DNA of 64,000 nt from Chlorops oryzae (Eukaryota > Arthropoda > Insecta > Diptera > Chloropidae). Every line of letters begins with the position of its first letter. The first letter of the stretch is position 1. A program made the position numbers and the translations under genes. Location of the stretch: positions 115,672,737 through 115,736,736 of the forward strand of contig CM035806.1 in the NCBI GenBank assembly GCA_020466095.1, given 5' to 3'. Under the pieces are notes generated by a model. The model ran no database searches. It worked only from the letters and a program-made list of their open reading frames with translations, and was not told the DNA's origin. Shown piece by piece: positions 11,240 through 63,475 of the stretch.

Positions 11240-11467
11240 GATGCTTAAATACGAAGTTACTTCAGCGGAAGATTAAAAACCCCTTCAATGAAATCTTTTC
11301 AATTAATTTTGTTTATTAATCACTTACATTAATTGAAATTCGTTTAGCGGAGCTTAGCAGATTTTACCCACAAATATTGCATAATCGCCAATTTAAATCT
11401 GGCAACACTGCTAGTCTGTGTTAATGAAGTCTGTTATATTGAACGTCTTCTTAACGTGAAAATTAAA

Positions 11468-15246: not shown

Positions 15247-16296
15247 CACTGTGCTAGTTTTTAGGACAAAAAAATTTGTTCATCGTGCAAACCGGCGCAG
15301 TCGGGTCCGGCTCGGTCCCCCGAGTACAACAGTACCAAGCACTAGTCTAGGTTAGCACGAGTTTGCGAAATATTCAACATTTTTTGCCAACATTTCACTG
15401 TTAATTTTTCAGTTATAGTTTTTCAATTTGAAAGGCTTTGGACGCTCTTTTAAAGTTGGTTAACTAAGCCAGACTGAAACCCAAGTATCATTTAACTCAA
15501 TTAATTTAATTTACTCAATCAAAGGCACGTTGTATTGGTTTTTTTGTTGTTGAAATTTTACGCATTTCCTAACTTACCCTAAATGTATGCTATAAATTAT
15601 ATTAAAGTCGAAATATTCAAATGTTAAAATCATAACATTAAATGTTCCTGATTTCGTTTGATTTCTGTAAAATTTTGTAAAGCATACTTTTGTGATGACA
15701 AATGAAATTTTTGCCAAAAATGGCATTAGATGTTGCATTTGATTGGTGTTTTTAGACTTCAATTGTATTATATGTGTATCTACAATAAATTAATGTGAGA
15801 ATATTGCCTGTAGCCATTATAATTGAAAAGATACGATTTAAAATTCGATAGTGCTAAAGGTGGCCGAAAATGGTGAATATTTTGCAATCTAGAGCCAACT
15901 TCTACTATCGGCTATTACCGTTGTACTCTGGGGTGTCAGCCCGAGCCGAATGCACCAATTTGCATGATGAACAATGTTTTCTTCTCGATGAACAAGCGCT
16001 TCGTCTTTGAAACTACACAGTTCGATTGCATTGCTTTTTTCACAATGTTGCCATTTTAATTGTTTGGCTTTCTTGACATATCGATTCATAAAAAAGGATG
16101 CATTTGTTATGGTATAGTTAACCATTGTGCTTTATTTTGAAAATTAATGCAAAACCATATTTACAAAACAGAACTTCATTTACCTTCAAACAAATATACC
16201 ATTGAACGGTGTAACGGCCTTTTTTTCGCTGGAGTAAGCTCAGTTTTTTTCAGAATCGTGTAATTATGCGGGATTTAAACCAATATTTAACTAAAT
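15247..16296. mobile_element. CACTGTG-ended element, truncated copy
   Basis: The left end CACTGTGCTAGTTTTTAGG is preceded by TTA. The sequence follows the full element at 53692-55118 to about 16296 (..CTAAATATAGTGTA) and then departs, so the right terminal repeat is lost. A 78-codon minus ORF (15889-16125) resembles nothing I know. It is non-autonomous. Confidence 0.7.
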
Positions 16297-16471
16297 ATAG
16301 TGTATCAAAAAGCAATTTTCTCGAAAAAATCATAAGCTTTATACATTTGTTTTAAAAGTGGTTTTGTAAACTATCAAGTTTTCATTGGCATGTTAAAACG
16401 TTACAGTTCTGAAATGTTTTGTTTTTGTGTGAGAAATACTCACTTCGCTGCTGATAAAAAAAAATAAAATA

Positions 16472-16767
16472 ATGGAGTCTTGCTACAGCAAAATAAACAA
16501 ATTTTGTTATCCGTGTGGCAGATTTACTTCTGTTAAGAACAGAAGGAAGATCTCAACGGAGACTGCAATTTTGTACGAGCAATATTTTCACATTCCAGTT
16601 ATTGGAAATGTTCCTTGGGTGCCTAAATACGCTTGCAGATCATGTACCATGCGACTTCATGATTGGAAGAATGGGCGAATTCTGAGCATGCCATTTGGTG
16701 TTCCAATGATTTGGTCCGAGCCAAACAACCATGCCGAATGCTACGTATGTGCAAACGATGTCAAGCG
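16472..16767 (+). pseudogene. N-terminal zinc-finger part of an uncharacterised arthropod TE-like protein
   Basis: ATG 16472 opens about 98 codons with cysteine pairs: KFCYPCGRFT near residue 11, YACRSCTMRLHDW near 54 and ECYVC near 90, plus the run MPFGVPMIWSEPNNH. I recognise this spacing from the N-terminus of a repeated, uncharacterised arthropod protein family whose C-terminus carries a GERFHQD-type motif. Pieces of that C-terminus occur at 29030-29416 and 62330-62840. After VCANDVK the frame runs into the compound repeat block (from 16759), so the last 17 codons are foreign and the rest of the gene is missing. Confidence 0.6.
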
Positions 16768-16967
16768 GAAGATTAAAAACCCCTTCAATGAAATCTTTTC
16801 AATTAATTTTGTTTATTAATCACTTACATTAATTGAAATTCGTTTAGCGGAGCTTAGCAGATTTTACCCACAAATATTGCATAATCGCCAATTTAAATCT
16901 GGCAACACTGCTAGTCTGTGTTTATGAAGTCTGTTATATTGAACGTCTTCTTAACGTGAAAATTAAA

Positions 16968-28352: not shown

Positions 28353-28462
28353 GTGTGGGCTAAAAATCACTAATTGTACACTTGAACTAACGCTTTTTTA
28401 GTGATTTGGGAACCAATTGGGAAAATTGGGTATAGTAAAACACTAGTTCCTTTGAAAGATTA

Positions 28463-29734
28463 CACTGTGCGACGAAATTGCACTTTTATAAAAATCCAAG
28501 AGGTTTGAGAACTGATTCCGGCGTGGTTTGGTCTCCTGATCACGAGGATATCGTTATTTTTTTGGGTCACGTCAGAGTTATGTTTTATGGGGCTCCAAAG
28601 TTTAGCCTATAAAATACCTTGTGAAAGAAAAAGATGTTGCATATTCAAAGGCGTAGGCTTTCAGTCAAAAAATGAAACTGCGATAAAGTAGGGCTCTTTG
28701 AATAATCCAGATAGTCTGAAAGTGGTTTCTGGTCTGAAATCTCGTCCTGATGACGGGGATGTCTTTATTTTGTTTGGGATACGTCAAAATAACATTTAAT
28801 GGGACTTTCGAAATTCTTTGTTGTGTATGAAATGAAAATTTTTTGAAAGTAAGTTGGCTATCGTGTTTGCATTGCATATTCAAATTTTAATCTGTAAGGT
28901 ATGCTACGTTTTTAACATTTTTTATTATGTATCATATGAAAAATCGTACAAATGCATATAAAAGTACTGTTGTATAAATGATCTTTTGCTAAGTAGTACG
29001 TGATTTAAAAACTTAAATATAATAAATATGGCGCTTGATTTATTTAGGAAATACACCTTTACATTTTTCTTTTCGAGCATCGACTGTACATTTCTTCGAG
29101 CTCGTCTGGTATAACACTCCAGCAATATTCCGCAAGCATTGAAACCAAATTTTTCTCCTTATATCTTGTTTCCATTTCAAGCATTTCCTGGTGAAATATC
29201 TCACCATGTTCGTCCGAAACTTTACCGAGATTTTCAGGAAAAAAATCTGTGACTATGCAACATATGGATTTTCAACGACATGAGAACATTTAAATCTTTG
29301 AAAGCAGCTAGCATATTTTTTACTAATTCCTTATAGTTTTGTGTCTTATAAGAACCTAGGAAGTTTTGAATGACGGATTTAATACTCAACCATGCTCTTT
29401 GTTCCGTTTCGTTCATTTTTGACGTAACCCAAACAAAATCAAGACATCCCCGTCATCAGGAAAAGAAATCAGACCAGAAACCACTTTCAGACTATCTGGA
29501 TTATTCAAAGAGCTCAACTTTATCGCAGTTTCATTTTTTGACTGAAAGCCTACGCCTTTGAATATGCAACATATTTTTCTTTCACAAGATATTTTATAGG
29601 CTAAACTTTGGAGCCCCATAAAACATAACTTTGACGTGACCCAAAAAAAAGAACGATATCCTCGTGATCAGGAGACCAAACCACGCCGGAATCAGTTTTC
29701 AAACCTCTTGGATATTTTTTCTCGTCGCACAGTG
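28463..29734. mobile_element. CACTGTG-ended element with TTA duplication
   Basis: The element is 1272 bp long. The left end CACTGTGCGACGA and right end TCGTCGCACAGTG open inverted repeats of about 325 bp (28463-28790 and 29413-29734). TTA flanks both sides (28460-28462 and 29735-29737). The middle holds a minus-strand fragment of an uncharacterised ORF (29030-29416). The element at 53692 shares the CACTGTG end and a TAA duplication but has a different interior. A 3-bp TWA target is known from PIF/Harbinger among others, but the end sequence does not look typical of that group, so I leave the superfamily open. Confidence 0.8.
29030..29416 (-). pseudogene. C-terminal part of an uncharacterised arthropod TE-like protein
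   Basis: From ATG 29416 the sequence reads MNETEQRAWLSIKSVIQNFL, YKELVKNML and LMSLKIHMLHSH. After a frameshift near 29245 it continues FFPENLGKVSDEHGEIFHQE, MLAEYCWSV and ends in a basic tail near 29030. The GE(R/I)FHQ(D/E) motif followed by RY and ADYCW/AEYCW marks a family I have seen many times in arthropod genomes without assigned function. The N-terminal two thirds are absent. Its position inside inverted repeats suggests that it is part of that transposon's protein. Confidence 0.6.
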
Positions 29735-30292
29735 TTATTGACCATGTTTTGTGGTTTTTTGGTTATTTTTGCTCTAAAATTTTTTGAGCCTCCAATACGC
29801 AATATTTAAAAGACACCGAATTATTTTTCGTGTTTGTTTTATTTACAAAAATATTTGTAATATATAATATAAAGATAGATTTTATTTTTGATTTCGGAGC
29901 ACCAACGCTCTTTGCAACAACTATATAATGGCAACTCTTATTACTGACACGAAAAACCATTTTTCCATGCAATACTAGTCGGAGTTTTATACGAAGCTCT
30001 ACCCCTCTTTGCACTAGTTCTTTAGTTTTGGTGAAAGTACTAGTTGCATCCAGGCTATATACCTCACACTTCCTAGAGGGTAATAAGCATTGAGCTCTGC
30101 TGTGTTGAAAGTCAGATTGTAATGTCGATGTGTGAGTTCATATGGACACAAATCGTGGTGAAAGTCAGTTTATCTTATGTGAATGTGTTAACTGTGGGCA
30201 AAGTCAGATTGTGAATGGGCAAAGTCGGTTTATACAAGCTCCCCTCACCCGTCTTAGTGATTTTGGGAAGTTTCGCTTGTAGTATTGTATGG
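29735..30292. other. no gene seen
   Basis: AT-rich DNA. Between about 30100 and 30230, GGTGAAAGTCAGTTTAT, GGCAAAGTCAGATTGTGAAT and GGCAAAGTCGGTTTAT form an irregular short repeat. No ORF of note. Confidence 0.4.
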
Positions 30293-47662: not shown

Positions 47663-48582
47663 CAAGTAAAGAAGTTTACATCGGCTAAGCCGATTGCACA
47701 CATACCTTTTCCTCAGCCTTAAATATGTTGAAACATTACCTTAACAAAAATTCCAACCCTTTTCGTTGTTCTAGCTACACATTATCTGTGCTTCGATTTA
47801 GCTTCACAAACTCGAAATTATATTTAAGTACAAATTTTTTGCGAATGGTGGGCATGGTCAAATTTTAACCGTTAGAGGACATTTTGTCTAGCTGCGAAAT
47901 ACTCAATTCAAAATAGTGAAAATCACATTTTTGCGAATTTCGCGAATGGTGGTCTTGATCAAATTTAAACCGTTAGAGGAAATTTTGTTTAGCTGCGAAA
48001 TACTCAATTCAAAATAGTGAAAATCAACATTTCGCGAGTTTCGCGAATGATGGTCATGGTCAAAATTTAACCGTTAGAGGACATTTTGTCTAGCTGCGAA
48101 ATACTCAATTCAAACTAGTGAAAATCAAATTTTCGCGAATTTCGCGGATGGTGGTCAAATTTTAACCTTAAGTGACGGCTTTATTTGGCGGCAAAAAACA
48201 CAATCAGAAGAAGCAAAAAAAAATCATTTTTGTATACAGATATGAGAATAAGAGAAAGAGTGTTTTTTTCTAATGTGTAGGATGATGACCATAGTTCTAG
48301 CGATGTTGCAAGTTTTTTTCAGCGAAAGCTTAAGTCTACATAGTAGCTATACACACACAAAATTTCAATAAGCTGGGATGTATAGTAAAAAAGTTATTCA
48401 CGAAAAACGTTAAGAATCGTGATTTTTGAAACTTCTGAACCACTTCCCACGACCCAAGAAGGGACTACGAAAAAAATTTGTTTGCAGTTTTTCGGACATT
48501 TACCTGGTTCATGTCCATGCCAAATTTCAATATGATATCTTTCATGGCTTAGGAGTAAATTACGAAAAACTAAACTGTGACC

Positions 48583-48634
<52 letters not shown>

Positions 48635-48767
48635 TGGCTAGATCGATTCCTCTTGTCACCCTGATCAAGAATATATATATATGTCTATATCTATCGCGAC
48701 TCCTTTGGTATATTACATACTCCGTGCCAAACTTAATATACCCTTTCCTTCGGAAAAGGTATAAAAA
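47663..48767 (-). mobile_element. DINE-B element 1
   Basis: On plus it starts at the hairpin end (ACAAGTAAAGAAGTTTACAT, stem ATCGGC-TAA-GCCGAT). About 3.3 units of a 101-bp repeat follow (47841-48174), then a conserved part, a (GACA)n run of about 12 units (48583-48632), the core, a (TA)n tract and GGAAAAGGTATAAAAA. It has the same TA / core / GTCY order as DINE-A but a different sequence. It is non-coding. Confidence 0.8.
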
Positions 48768-48825
48768 CACAATGTATATTTTTTTCTATTCTTTATCAAA
48801 TATTATTCCACCCCAATATTTTTTT

Positions 48826-50300
<1,475 letters not shown>

Positions 50301-50566
50301 TTTTTTTTTTTGGATCCAAATTTTGGGAGTTATGGGGTTTTGAAATTTTGAGAAAACAAAAATTTGATTTTTCTGAAATGCAAATTTAAAAGAAATGGCT
50401 TATCAGAGAAAATTAATGTTCATACAACGAGACAAAGAATCGTTTACGCTGGAAATGTAGCAGTTAAAATTTTTTTTTTAATTTGATTTTAATCAAGATT
50501 TTTATAGTTTCTTTAAACAATTGCTATTTTTTGCAAATAGAATTTTTTTATTTTATAATTTTTTTT
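50301..50566. other. AT-rich spacer between DINE-B elements
   Basis: No gene, no shared repeat. Begins with a T-run. Confidence 0.4.
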
Positions 50567-52272
50567 ATACCTTTTCCGAAGGAAAGGGTATATTAAGTTT
50601 GGCTCGGAGTATGTAACATGCCAAAGGAGTCGCGATAGATATAGAGATATATATATATTCTTTATCAGGGTGACAAGAGGAGTCGATCTAGCCATGTCTG
50701 TCTGTCTGTCTGTCTGTCTGTCGGTCACACTTTAGTTTTTCGTAATTTACTCCTAAGCCATGAAAGATATCATATTGAAATTTGGCATGGATTTGAACCA
50801 GGTAAATGCCCGAAAAACTGCATACAAATATTTTTCGTAGTCCCTTCTTGGGTCGTGGGAAGTGGTTCATAAGTTTCAAAAATCACGATTTTTAACGTTT
50901 TTCGTGGATAACTTTTTTACTATACATCCCAGCTTATTGAAATTTGGTGTGTGTATAGCTACTATGTAGACTTAAGCTTTCGCTGAAAAAAAATTGCGAC
51001 ATCGCTATAACTATGGTCATCATCCTACACATTAGAAAAAAAACACTCTTTCTCTTATTCTCATATCTGAATACAAAAATGATTTTTTTTTTGCTTCTTC
51101 TGGTTGTGTATTTTGCCGCCAAATAAAGTCGTCACTTATGGTTAAATTTTGACCATGACCACCATTCGCGAAATTTGCAAAAATTTGGTTTTCACTATTT
51201 TGAATTGAGGATTTCGCAACTAGACAAAATGTCCTCTAACGGTTAAATTTTGACCATGACCACCATTCGCGAAATTGGAAAAAATTTGGTTTTCACTATT
51301 TTGAATTGAGGATTTCGCAACTAGACAAAATGTCCTCTAACGGTTAAATTTTGACCATGACCACCATTCGCGAAATTGGCAAAAATTTGATTTTCACTAG
51401 TTTGAATTGAGTATTTCGCAGCTAGACAAAATGTCCTCTAACGGTTAAAATTTGACCATGATCACCATTCCCGAAATTCGCGAAAATTTGATTTTTACTA
51501 TTTTAAATTGAGGTTTTCGCAGCTAGACAAAATGTCCTCTAACGGTTAAATTTTGACCATGACCACCATTCGCGAAACTTGCAAATATTTGGTTTTCACT
51601 ATTTTGAATTGAGGATTTCGCAACTAGACAAAATGTCCTCTAACGGTTAAATTTTGACCATGACCACCATTCGCAAAATTCGGAAATATTTTATTTTCAC
51701 TATTTTGAATTGAGGTTTTCGCAGCTAGACAAAATGTCCTCTAACGGTTAAATTTTGACCATGACCACCATTCGCGAAATTCGCGAAAATTTGATTTTTA
51801 CTATTTTAAATTGAGGTTTTCGCAGCTAGACAAAATGTCCTCTAACGGTTAAATTTTGACCATGACCACCATTCGCGAAACTTGCAAATATTTGGTTTTC
51901 ACTATTTTCAATTGAGTATTTCACAGCTAGACAAAATGTCCTATAACGGTTAAAATTTGACCATGAACACCATTCGCGAAATTCGCAAAAATTTTATTTT
52001 CACTATTTTGAATTGAGTATTTCGCAGCTAGACAAAATGTCCTCTAACGGTTAAAACTTGACCATGCTCACCATCCGCGAAAAATTTGTGCTTAATAATA
52101 ATCTCGAGTTTTAGAAGCTAAATCGAAGTACAGATAAGGTATAAATAGATATCCAAGCTAGAATAACGAAAACGGCAGGAAGTTTTGTTAAGGTAATGTT
52201 TTAACATATTTCAGGCTGAGGAAAAGGTATGTGTGCAATCGGCTTAGCCGATGTAAACTTCTTTACTTGTTT
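50567..52272 (+). mobile_element. DINE-B element 3
   Basis: It has the same order as element 2 but a (GTCT)n run of only about six units (50696-50721) and about nine units of the 101-bp repeat (51161 to about 52085). Units carry ACCATTCGCGAAATT, TTTTCACTATTTTGAATTGA and AGACAAAATGTCCTCTAACG. It ends with the hairpin and TTCTTTACTTGTTTT. Confidence 0.85.
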
Positions 52273-53440: not shown

Positions 53441-55270
53441 TAGGCCGGGTCGATTTGTATGGGTAAATAAAAACTAAGAAATCGTACCCCTGGAAATGAA
53501 ACTTCAGACAATTCTAAGCTTTTTTTCCAAGAAACCATGGGTATAAATGAAACGTAGATCCGCGCTGAACGATGGGAAGTTTTTACCATACATACATATG
53601 TTATTAACAGGGATTGGATTTTACATATTTGAAAATATATTTTAATTTTTTTAATACTTTCAAATATGTTAAATCCGATCCCTGTTAATAACACTGTGGT
53701 AGTCGAAAAAATTTCATCGTGCAAACCGGCGCAGTCGGGTCCGGCTCGGTCCCCCGAGTACAACAGTACCAAGCACTAGTCTAGGATAGCTCGAGTTTGC
53801 GAAATATTCGAAATTTTTTGCCAACATTTCACTGTTAATTTTTCAGTTATATTTTTTCAATTTTAAAGGCTTTGGACGCTCTTTTGAAGTTGGTTAACTA
53901 AGCCAGACGAAACATAAGTATCATTTAACTCAATTAATTCAATTTACTCAATCAAAGGCACGTTCTATTGGTTTTTTTTTTTTGTTGCAATTTTACGCAT
54001 TTTCTAACATTACCCCAAATGTATGCTATAAATTATATTAAAGTCGAAATATTAAAATGTTAAAATCATAAAATTAAATGTTCCTGATTTCGTTTGATTT
54101 CTGTAAAATTTTGTAAAGCATACTTTTGTGATGACAAATGAATTTTTTGCCAAAAATGGCCTTAGATGTTGCATTTGATTGGTGTTTTTAGACTGCAATT
54201 GTATGATATGTGTATCTACAATAAATTAATGTGAGAATAATGCCTGTAGCCATTATAATTGAAAAAATACGTTTAAAATTTGATAGTGCTAAAGGTGGCT
54301 GAAAATGGTGAATATTTTGCAATCTAGAGCCAACTTCTACTATCGGCAATTACCGTTGTACTCTGGGGTGTCAGCCCGACCCGAATGCACCAATTTGCAT
54401 GATGAACAATGTTTTATTCTCGATGAACAAGCGCTTCGTCTTTGAAACTATACAGTTCGATTTCATTGTTTTTTCAAATTGTTGGCATTTTAATTGTTTG
54501 GCTTTCCTGAATATCGATTCATAAAAACGGATGCATTTGTTATGGTATAGTTAACCATTGAGCTATATTTTGAAAATTAATGCAAAACCATATTTACAAA
54601 ACAGAACTTCATTTATCTTCAAACAACTATACCATTGAACGGTGTAACGGAATTTTTTTGATGGAGTAAGCTCAGTTTTTTTCAGAAGCGTGTCATTATG
54701 CGGGATTTAAACCAATATTTAACTAAATATAGTGTAGTCTTTCCAGGTTCCGATCTAGTTCTCAAAAAACAAATTTTTTCCGTTGCCCTTCGAATGAGGG
54801 CTCACCAAGTTTGTGCGATTCAGACGACAACTCAAATTCTTGAGAGCTCATCTTGGTGGATTAATTGAGTAAAATGATACTTATGTTTCGTCTGGCTTAG
54901 TTAACCAACTTCAAAAGAGCGTCCAAAGCCTTTAAAATTGAAAAAATATAACTGAAAAATTAACAGTGAAATGTTGGCAAAAAATTTCGAATATTTCCCA
55001 AACTCGAGCTAACCTAGACTAGTGTTGGTACTGTTGTACTCGGGGGGACCGAGCCGGACCCGACTGCGCCGGTTTGCACGATGAACAAATTTTTTTGTTC
55101 CTAAAAACTAGCACAGTGTAACATATGTATGTATGGTAAAAACTTCCTATCGTTCAGCGCGGATCTACGTTTCATTTTATACCCATGGTTTCTTGGGAAA
55201 AAAATCTTAGAATTGTCTGAAGTTTATTTCCGGGGTTACGATTTTTTATCCAAAAAATCGACCCGGCCTA
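53441..55270. mobile_element. foldback hAT-type MITE, itself interrupted
   Basis: The ends are TAGGCCGGGTCGATTT and its reverse. ATGTATGT is duplicated on both sides (53433-53440 and 55271-55278). The matching point of copy B (about 56219-56230) has a single ATGTATGT, so the empty site is preserved. The two arms (53441-53691 and 55122-55270) pair over their length, with a small inner palindrome around TTAACAGGGATYGGATTT. Without the inner element it would be about 400 bp. An 8-bp duplication and a TAG start suggest hAT. Confidence 0.85.
53692..55118. mobile_element. CACTGTG-ended element with TAA duplication, full copy
   Basis: The element is 1427 bp long. The left end is CACTGTGGTAGTCGAAAAAA and the right end, in reverse, CACTGTGCTAGTTTTTAGG. 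The inverted repeats are about 250 bp long (to AATTTACTC and GAGTAAAATG). TAA is present on both sides (53689-53691 and 55119-55121). It sits at the tip of the foldback MITE. It shares its body with 15247-16296. No ORF of note, so it is non-autonomous. Confidence 0.85.
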
Positions 55271-61155: not shown

Positions 61156-61765
61156 AAGAAAATTGCAACCTTAGCGGTGAAAAACCCTCAGTATTGCTTG
61201 TGTTTGTGCCACGTGGAAGTTGCTTTATATAGTGGCTACTGCTCTTTCGACTTCAAATTGTTGTTAGCATAACTTCGTCGATGTGGTTATGTCAGCGTGA
61301 ATGAATAAGTTGTGATGACTGTGTTACTGTGCAAACTTGATTTGGCCTTTTAATTAGACTTGAAGACCCAGCTTGATCGGTGCAAAATGTTTCAGTCCGG
61401 GAGTCATTGTTGGCTCCCTTCTCTCCCCTTCTTAAAGAAGTCGGTTATCTGTATTGGTGAGTTGATGTCGAAGTATTTGTCTTCACGCGGCTGTAGTGGC
61501 GAAGAAGAAAGGCAATTTGGCGACTTTTGCCTGTCGTTGCTGGAGAATTGTTGTTGACGAAAGGCAATTTTGAAACGTTTGCCTGTTGTTGCTGGAGACT
61601 TGTTGACTTTGGCACGTTCTTCGTTATTTATTCTACCCTTTTACATAAATCCCTCTTACATAAATCCAACTTTAAAACTTCAAAACATATACATATTGAC
61701 TTTTTGAATCATTTTCTTTTTTAATTCTCTTACTCTACACTTTACCATAATTATAATAATTACAC
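61156..61765. other. possible remnant of the LTR element's internal end; no gene
   Basis: Two copies of CTGTCGTTGCTGGAGA / CTGTTGTTGCTGGAGA (about 61530 and 61583) preceded by GAAAGGCAATTT form a short repeat of about 53 bp. No conserved domain is seen. Confidence 0.35.
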
Positions 61766-62329
61766 AGGCCGACACAGATTTTGGTGCCGACGGTTTTGAA
61801 ACTGATTTAGAATATTTGGACTCAGATGATTTCAAAAATGTGGTCGGTTTTTCTCTATCAGCTCTAGTTAAAGAGATATAGGCAAAATATGTTTTTTTCG
61901 ACTTTGATATACTTAAATGCCATCAACTCGGTTGCTTATTTTTATACTTCAAATTTTTTTACAGGAGTGAGAAGCGAAAAGACAGGTCTTATAACAAATG
62001 TAAATTGTTTTCTTGGTTTGTAAGAGTTTATTGGAAATTTTCCAATTCGAAACTGAAAATGTTAGTTTTCCCCCAAAATTTTTCAACTTTGAGCCCTTTT
62101 TTACCCAATTTCCTTCGGTGCAACGCCTCCAAATTGGCATATTTTTGAAAAACACATTTAATTGACAATAAAATGGTGTATAAATATTGATAAGTTCTTG
62201 AAAATTGCTGAAGCTATTTAAGGTTTTCAAAAAAAAAAAGAAGAGATTCGATGTAAAATTTATAAGAAAAACACAAGTTTGCTTTGCAACGTATTTAGTT
62301 ACATAGTATTTAGTATTGTACATGAAGAA

Positions 62330-62580
62330 ATTGCCTTTTAAGTGATTTTCTTGAGTGTACGTTTTTTGGGAAATCGCGCATAATTCCCCAGCAATAGTCT
62401 GCCATCATACGAATGTCCCATCTCCCTTGATACCTTTTCTCCATTGTTTAAATATCCTGGTGGAAGCGTTCTCCTTGTTCTTCGCTGAGATCTCCTAGGT
62501 TATGTTGAAAGTGATCTATATGACTATGGAGGTAGTGTACTTTTATGCTCATGTTGCAGCTTAAATTTTTAAAGTAATTT
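62330..62580 (-). pseudogene. C-terminal part of uncharacterised arthropod TE-like protein, minus copy
   Basis: On minus: NLSCNMSIKVHYLHSHIDHF, HNLGDLSEEQGERFHQD, a stop, TMEKRYQGRWDIRMMADYCW, GIMRDFPKNVHSRKSLKRQF and HVQY. This is the same family as 29030-29416 and better conserved. The segment 62450-62575 is repeated in reverse at 62710-62835. Confidence 0.6.
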
Positions 62581-62596
62581 TTATGGCATCTATGAC

Positions 62597-62840
62597 TTGT
62601 TAGAAAAATTAGCCTGGAAATATTTTGTAGCAGTAGTAAAAAGTTTCCTCGGAAATAACAAGGCTGACAACTACAAAGAATTAGTTGAAGAAATGCTCCT
62701 GAACTTTAAAAATTTAGGCTGCAACATGAGCATAAAAGTACACTACCTCCATAGTCATATAGATCACTTTCAACATAACCTAGGAGATCTCAGCGAAGAA
62801 CAAGGAGAACGCTTCCACCAGGATATAATTAAAGTTTTTT
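62597..62840 (+). pseudogene. C-terminal part of uncharacterised arthropod TE-like protein, plus copy
   Basis: From 62597 it reads AWKYFVAVVKSFLGNNKADN, YKELVEEMLLNFKNL, GCNMSIKVHYLHSHIDHF and HNLGDLSEEQGERFHQD, then departs at 62835. It extends further toward the N-terminus than the minus copy, and together they cover about 150 codons. The head-to-head arrangement gives an inverted repeat of about 125 bp with a 135-bp spacer. Confidence 0.6.
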
Positions 62841-62929
62841 TTTGCCAATCTTTGATGACTTCCCCCAACAATTCTCTTGATAAATTAAGAGGTTCATGTT
62901 CAAACATACATATTTTCGTTTGGTTTATA

Positions 62930-63475
62930 TTTAATTTTTTTCTCTATGCAGCAAAAAAATCTGAGTGCAAATTTCAAAATGAACAACCCGCAATCTGTTT
63001 GATTTTCCTGTTGCGGACAATTTGGATATATTGATTCTCTTATTTTTGAAAAAATGTCATTTTCTTTTAGGCTATTGGCTGTGTCAAAAAAAAAACTTAA
63101 TATTTGTGATAATTTCATGGACACTATGCGGTTTGAGGGAGTCGAGCACATATATAAAGTCAGAGTGTGCTACCGCAAGCATCCAATGATTGTTTTCACA
63201 AATTGGAAAAACTAATGTCTTTACCATGAACACATCAATGATTCTTAGCAATGATTTTATTCTAATCCTGCTACTGCTTTGTTGTCTATTCCTTTTGCCG
63301 CTTTAATACTTGTGTAGGCAAATGAATCAAAAACGTAAACCGATTTGTGAATTGAAAAATGTAATTTAAATAGCCAGTTCATAAAAACATTGATGTGTAC
63401 ATCGTTCAACCACCTATTATTGAGCAATCTATTGTAATCGTCCTGGGTAATATTGTTCGATCGGTTTCCTATCAT
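62930..63475 (-). pseudogene. Ulp1-like (C48) cysteine protease fragment
   Basis: From 63475: MIGNRSNNITQDDYNRLL, RWLNDVHINVFMNWLF and VYVFDSFAY. After a shift near 63235: IDVFMVKTLVFPICENNHWM with the catalytic His, FIYVLDSLKPHSV with the Asp, then QQENQTDCGLFILKFALRFF with the catalytic Cys. A second shift is near 63145. These are the Ulp1/SENP protease signatures in order. Such domains process SUMO in host proteins and also occur in several DNA transposons. Here, surrounded by repeats, a TE origin is more likely. Confidence 0.65.

Follow-up and report, generated by a model that had tools for sequence, protein, structure and literature searches.

RESULTS

Transposon ends and transposase remains in the window

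In a stretch of 64,000 nucleotides from the fly Chlorops oryzae (C1:115672737-115736736, the window), elements starting at 28463 and 53692 and a further copy at 15247 share the terminal heptamer CACTGTG next to TTA or TAA, and the first of them holds part of an open reading frame (ORF). To which kind of transposon do these ends belong, and does the ORF represent its transposase? The original prediction, made from the sequence alone, had left the elements unclassified. We conclude, with a probability of roughly 0.88, that two families of Chapaev3-type cut-and-paste DNA transposons are present in the window, as copies that are non-autonomous or truncated. The features are as follows (positions in the window; profile positions refer to a transposase family profile built from 60 members):

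28460..28462, no strand: target site duplication TTA, left of the F1 element, pairing with the identical TTA at 29735..29737
28463..29734, minus strand: F1 non-autonomous Chapaev3-like element, internally deleted, carrying a transposase fragment
28463..28789, plus strand: F1 left inverted arm; 24 bp separate CACTGTG from the inner shared block
29065..29425 (approximate), minus strand: transposase C-terminal fragment, profile 435-555 of 557, one frameshift
29417..29734, minus strand: F1 right inverted arm; 14 bp separate CACTGTG from the inner shared block
29735..29737, no strand: target site duplication TTA, right of the F1 element
53689..53691, no strand: target site duplication TAA, left of the F2 element, pairing with 55119..55121
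53692..55118, no strand: F2 element; heptamer-to-inner-block distance 14 (left) and 26 (right)
55119..55121, no strand: target site duplication TAA, right of the F2 element
15247..16764, plus strand: F2 copy, right side cut off, preceded by TTA
16472..16816, plus strand: F2 transposase N-terminal zinc-finger part, profile 3-102
61763..63031, no strand: third relic from the transposase family; its head CACAGGCC follows TTA at 61763

The combined motif TWACACTGTG occurs five times in the window, each time at one of the five ends reported; 0.28 occurrences are expected and none of 100 shuffled sequences reaches five. The heptamer by itself is near expectation (7 versus 4.4). The predicted inverted repeats and 3-bp duplications were both found: arms of ∼320 bp (91.6% identical) between two TTA for the element at 28463, and for that at 53692 CACTGTG at both tips, an arm pair of ∼240 bp (53706-53941/54857-55095, 96% identical) and TAA on either side. 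The copy at 15247 does follow TTA. The elements at 28463 and 53692 do not align with each other (no match at E ≤ 1e-5); a single family for all three was therefore rejected and two were defined, F1 and F2. Over 1068 aligned columns the 15247 copy shares 93.7% identity with the 53692 element, and over 1496 it shares 98.7% with a full-length F2 element (see below); its far end is lost near 16764, at the start of another repeat that is also present at 11264.

The suspected ORF fragment of the F1 element proved real: two frames at 29065-29425 match the family profile with E-values of 3.5e-22 and 2.1e-21. The stretch 16433-16816 (plus strand) matches the N-terminal part of that profile (E 3.4e-27), the final ∼17 codons of the zinc-finger ORF at 16472-16816 being derived from the adjoining repeat. 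With the same profile no recognisable transposase sequence was detected in the F2 element at 53692-55118. C-terminal transposase pieces with GERFHQD lie on both strands at 62313-63031 as an inverted duplication; together with the head at 61763 they would form one element, a third lineage of the transposase family, the right end of which was not found with four patterns up to 2964 bases past the window. None of the window copies holds an intact transposase, and they would be mobile only with enzyme supplied by intact relatives.

F1 and F2 families across the genome

All ends were read in this one genome of 442 Mb (1044 contigs), and genome searches scored the best candidates only, in one of them 40 of 209, so that copy numbers are lower bounds. 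Using the F1 left arm as query, the best 40 of 53 candidates scored as matches; both arms in opposite orientation were found in 14 of the 20 regions fetched, the elements spanning 1.1 to 4.4 kb. Pieces of one transposase lie between the arms in 14 of 15 F1 elements (counting that of the window), with only ∼20 residues in three of them. The longest, of 4404 bp (L009), covers profile 3-555 of 557 in four frame pieces, and the window F1 element is an internally deleted relative of it, ∼96-97% identical over its parts.

A full-length F2 element of 5588 bp (L074, L076; C1:16533365-16538952) was located via the zinc-finger ORF at 16472, in a search that scored the best 150 of 470 candidates. It carries CACTGTG at both tips and TAA on both sides; exon 1 corresponds to profile 3-420 and exon 2 to profile 415-541. 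In F1 and F2 an intron-like gap with GT..AG ends interrupts the gene at the same position and in the same codon phase, pointing to a shared phase-1 intron that would be removed by splicing. A further complete F2 element, with two ends, was sought in L075, a stretch that turned out to lack the heptamer. In a separate region (L070, C1:111773461-111785200) four F2 N-terminal pieces follow each other in the same orientation at ∼3.8-kb spacing; a tandem array seems to include the F2 element there.

Thus the ORF belongs to the ends, as had been proposed: the longer F1 and F2 copies join both halves, the zinc finger of the kind at 16472 and the GERFHQ-like C-terminus, in one transposase, within CACTGTG ends and TWA duplications, in two families of this genome. 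These longer copies rule out a chance association of ORF and ends.

Sister lineages and target sites

When the transposase protein was searched against the genome, the best 150 of 914 candidates scored as matches, many of them in long open frames; the transposase family is therefore large in this genome. Dozens of copies of one lineage have identical scores and a 493-residue frame, and other lineages have frames of 637-651 residues. These multiple long-frame copies probably reflect recent activity. The sister lineages end in the heptamers CACAGCC (FB), CACAGCT (FC), CACAGGC (FD) and CACTGCT/CACTGTC (FE), so that CACTGTG is not the mark of the whole family; CAC..GTG termini are common to F1, F2, FB, FC, FD and FE, one FC copy (L036) showing TAC at one tip. 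For four further lineages (L063, L064, L065 and L066) both ends were sought and not resolved.

The duplication is exactly 3 bp in all 29 elements counted from F1, F2, FB, FC and FD, and extends to 4 bp in none. The target sites are 18 TAA, 10 TTA and one TAT, which bears out the proposed TWA target in 28 of 29. An A precedes the duplication in 27 and a T follows it in 26 of the 29. Six further pairs, one from the 5588-bp F2 element (L074), three from other F2 copies and two from FE, yielded five TWA and one TGA, the latter in F2. For the count both tips had to lie in the fetched stretch (13-mer, or 11-mer for F2, with one mismatch) and duplicates were removed; the lone FD element (L057) entered under FB owing to the allowed mismatch. 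Left out were L011 (one tip not found), L005, L007, L022 to L026 and L028 (a single end within the stretch), and L008, L014, L019, L020, L021 and L029 (places identical to counted loci). From the set of 30 transposase loci, L029 to L058, 15 were likewise left out; of the other 15, 14 give counted pairs and one repeats L010.

Transposase motifs and predicted fold

A protein search (7999 candidates scored) yielded 628 relatives, of which 120 were listed; nearly all of these have 530 to 601 residues, and most are unnamed. In an alignment of 60 sequences (A1; 57 of the listed relatives plus three translated loci) each of the motifs C(2)C, LH and H(4)H is either fully conserved or kept in 90% or more of the sequences. 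The members scanned score below the cut-off of every Pfam family, and no transposase family is found in the list of 25 families with E ≤ 1 obtained for 60 members.

The RNase H-like fold that had been anticipated was obtained as a prediction: in a model of a sister transposase (L045) the catalytic part resembles the RNase H core of RAG1 and Transib, which lead the structure matches, with 10-14% identity to Transib/HzTransib in the aligned part. A viral structure library gave no match at E ≤ 0.001, and the whole-protein profile found nothing below E 0.16 among the sequences of the Protein Data Bank, RAG1 not being listed. With a profile of nine N-termini a RAG1 chain (21wb_A) ranked second of 177635 sequences (E 0.34) with its cysteines in the same order, behind a ZAD, the domain of zinc-finger proteins known in Pfam as zf-AD (E 0.21). 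The N-terminal zinc finger, at 16472-16816 and in relatives, looks similar to ZAD and, weakly, to the N-terminus of RAG1; it and ZAD may go back to one ancestor. An N-terminal Chapa zinc finger in common with RAG1 counts among the marks of Chapaev3. A text search of the literature for GERFHQ gave no match.

Unequal ends

In F1 and F2 the two ends of an element differ just inside the heptamer and are nearly identical thereafter. We read the distance from heptamer to inner block at 36 F1, 6 F2, 5 FE, 8 FC and 24 FB ends. In F1 one end measures 13 or 14 and the opposite end 24 (14 of 14 elements), in F2 14 or 15 versus 25 or 26 (all five elements with both ends read) and in FE 12 or 14 versus 25 (both elements, L059/L061). 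Two values, 44 in F1 and 43 in FE, were set aside: they stem from a second heptamer-like word upstream, which was seen in FE and is presumed in F1. The difference between the ends, ∼10-13 bp, recalls the 12/23 spacers of V(D)J recombination signals. FB ends, in contrast, measure 17 or 18, the two ends of the sole FD element differ by one base, and FC is nearly symmetric (28 at seven ends, 22 at one).

In a transposase tree of moderate support (23 sequences, 289 columns) F1, F2 and FE group with two lineages whose ends were not read (support 0.81), and FB, FC and FD group elsewhere (0.95). Because copies within a family share one parent, the independent cases of unequal ends number at most three and possibly one.

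Other repeats around the F2 element

Palindromic repeats enclose the F2 element of the window at 53562-53688 and 55119-55170; they include a hairpin of ∼85 bp (∼53604-53688) that itself lies inside an inverted pair, a picture of nested insertions. At 47770-52149 lies a large cluster of arms, inverted and repeated, that reach 419 bp at 98% identity.

DISCUSSION

Probable assignment to Chapaev3

The cited source for Chapaev3 is reportedly Kapitonov and Jurka 2008. According to Zhang and colleagues (PMC4079192), hallmarks of the group are CAC..GTG ends, a TWA duplication always preceded by A and followed by T, and a DDE transposase with the motifs C(2)C, LH and H(4)H. Among the published elements in that paper, which also names Conan, the Garfield transposase has 556 residues, Merrow and Garfield have two exons, and deleted non-autonomous copies occur. 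The elements described here share the ends, the 3-bp TWA duplication, the motifs, the approximate transposase length, the two exons and the deleted copies; the A and T at the flanks are a bias here, whereas the quoted text has them always. To be set beside these hallmarks are the long arms (∼320 bp in F1, 240 to ∼1000 bp in F2) and the unequal heptamer-to-inner-block distances of F1, F2 and FE. Since the Chapaev3 marks that could be tested were found, F1 and F2 are filed, with some reserve, as new families of this known group, which does not support the unnamed kind that had been suspected. Chapaev3 elements have already been reported from a blowfly (PMC3630058).

Several points weigh against this assignment. 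It goes by published hallmarks rather than by a direct sequence or tree comparison with named Chapaev3 elements, the ends come from a single genome, and the duplications were read from flanks alone, not by comparing an insertion with its empty site. No F1 or F2 copy examined has both exons complete. Two of 35 duplications (TAT and TGA) are not TWA, and the base after the TAA of the 53692 element is C instead of T. The fold was predicted on an FB protein (L045), ∼36% identical to that of F1, instead of on F1 itself, and the N-terminal match to RAG1 is by itself not significant. Scans for relatives in viral contigs and in prokaryote genome contigs gave 59 and 56 pattern matches, respectively, none of which was confirmed.

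Among other explanations, a distinct superfamily within the CACTA-Mirage-Chapaev-Transib clade, sharing the TWA target and CAC ends with Chapaev3 yet separate from it, survives best, and we still consider it unlikely. The scanned members reach no Pfam cut-off and no Chapaev name appears among the 120 listed of 628 relatives, as such a superfamily would allow; however, CAC..GTG ends, the 3-bp TWA duplication, the A/T bias and the C(2)C-LH-H(4)H motifs are those of Chapaev3, and the 556 residues of Garfield fall within the range of nearly all listed relatives. CACTA/EnSpm elements, which are very improbable, would be compatible with CAC..GTG ends and a 3-bp duplication, and C(2)C and H(3-4)H are common to both groups (PMC12730594); yet the target here is TWA-specific, sister lineages end in CACAG, and no transposase family, those that mark EnSpm included, is among the 25 families listed. 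That the ORF fragment is a piece of another gene caught in a hairpin element is hardly credible: in the window it is indeed a broken fragment of ∼120 codons and the 53692 element has no transposase match, but 14 of 15 F1 elements carry parts of the same transposase, longer F1 and F2 copies span nearly all of it, and in FB, FC, FD and FE a different transposase goes with different ends.

The target TWA is also that of Harbinger. No PIF/Harbinger profile appears in the list of 25 Pfam families with E ≤ 1, an absence that excludes nothing, and PIF/Harbinger is absent among the structure matches, which by itself carries no weight. Transib elements typically make 5-bp duplications (PMC4411706), as does ProtoRAG (PMC8289069), compared with 3 bp here, none of 29 extending to four.

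A putative mechanism and a possible role for unequal ends

By analogy with RAG1 and Transib, to which the predicted fold and kinship point, a transposition pathway can be proposed. In a full element CAC..GTG ends and long inverted arms accompany a single transposase gene. Its product has an N-terminal zinc finger and, after it, a predicted RNase H core that contains a DDE-type triad as well as a CxxC..HxxxxH zinc site. The transposase would pair both ends, nick before CAC and, like RAG1 and Transib, form a hairpin on the flank, releasing the element; joining at A|TWA|T with a 3-bp stagger and subsequent fill-in would then create the duplication. Copies such as those in the window could be mobilised in trans.

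What merits further study is the unequal layout of the ends. A 2021 review (PMC8355894) knows 12/23-type asymmetry outside V(D)J recombination only from some Transibs, and the corresponding spacers are 27/31 in ProtoRAG (PMC8289069) and 12/23 in V(D)J signals. Among the papers listed for the topic, of which only PMC4411706 mentions Chapaev, we found no report of unequal ends in Chapaev, which is no proof of absence. CACTG-ended Chapaev3 families might follow a 12/23-like rule, in which synapsis needs one short (12-15 bp) and one long (24-26 bp) gap that differ by about one turn of DNA; we regard this as a doubtful but conceivable reading. Against a function speak the definition of the inner block, which rests solely on the agreement of the arms and makes its binding putative, the CACAG-ended lineages, which lack unequal ends, and the variable direction of the gene in F1 with respect to the long end.

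RAG1 is the enzyme that rearranges human antibody genes. The present results connect a large set of proteins, which lack a Pfam family and are hypothetical or uncharacterized where the list names them, with a transposon group and with the predicted RAG1/Transib fold, and give their end sequences in one genome. For the origin of the 12/23 layout, this genome offers three lineages with unequal ends versus three with equal or near-equal ends, all with related transposases. If the 12/23-like rule were true, paired unequal ends would be an old habit of RAG1-fold transposases that extends beyond a few Transibs, and no invention of V(D)J recombination.
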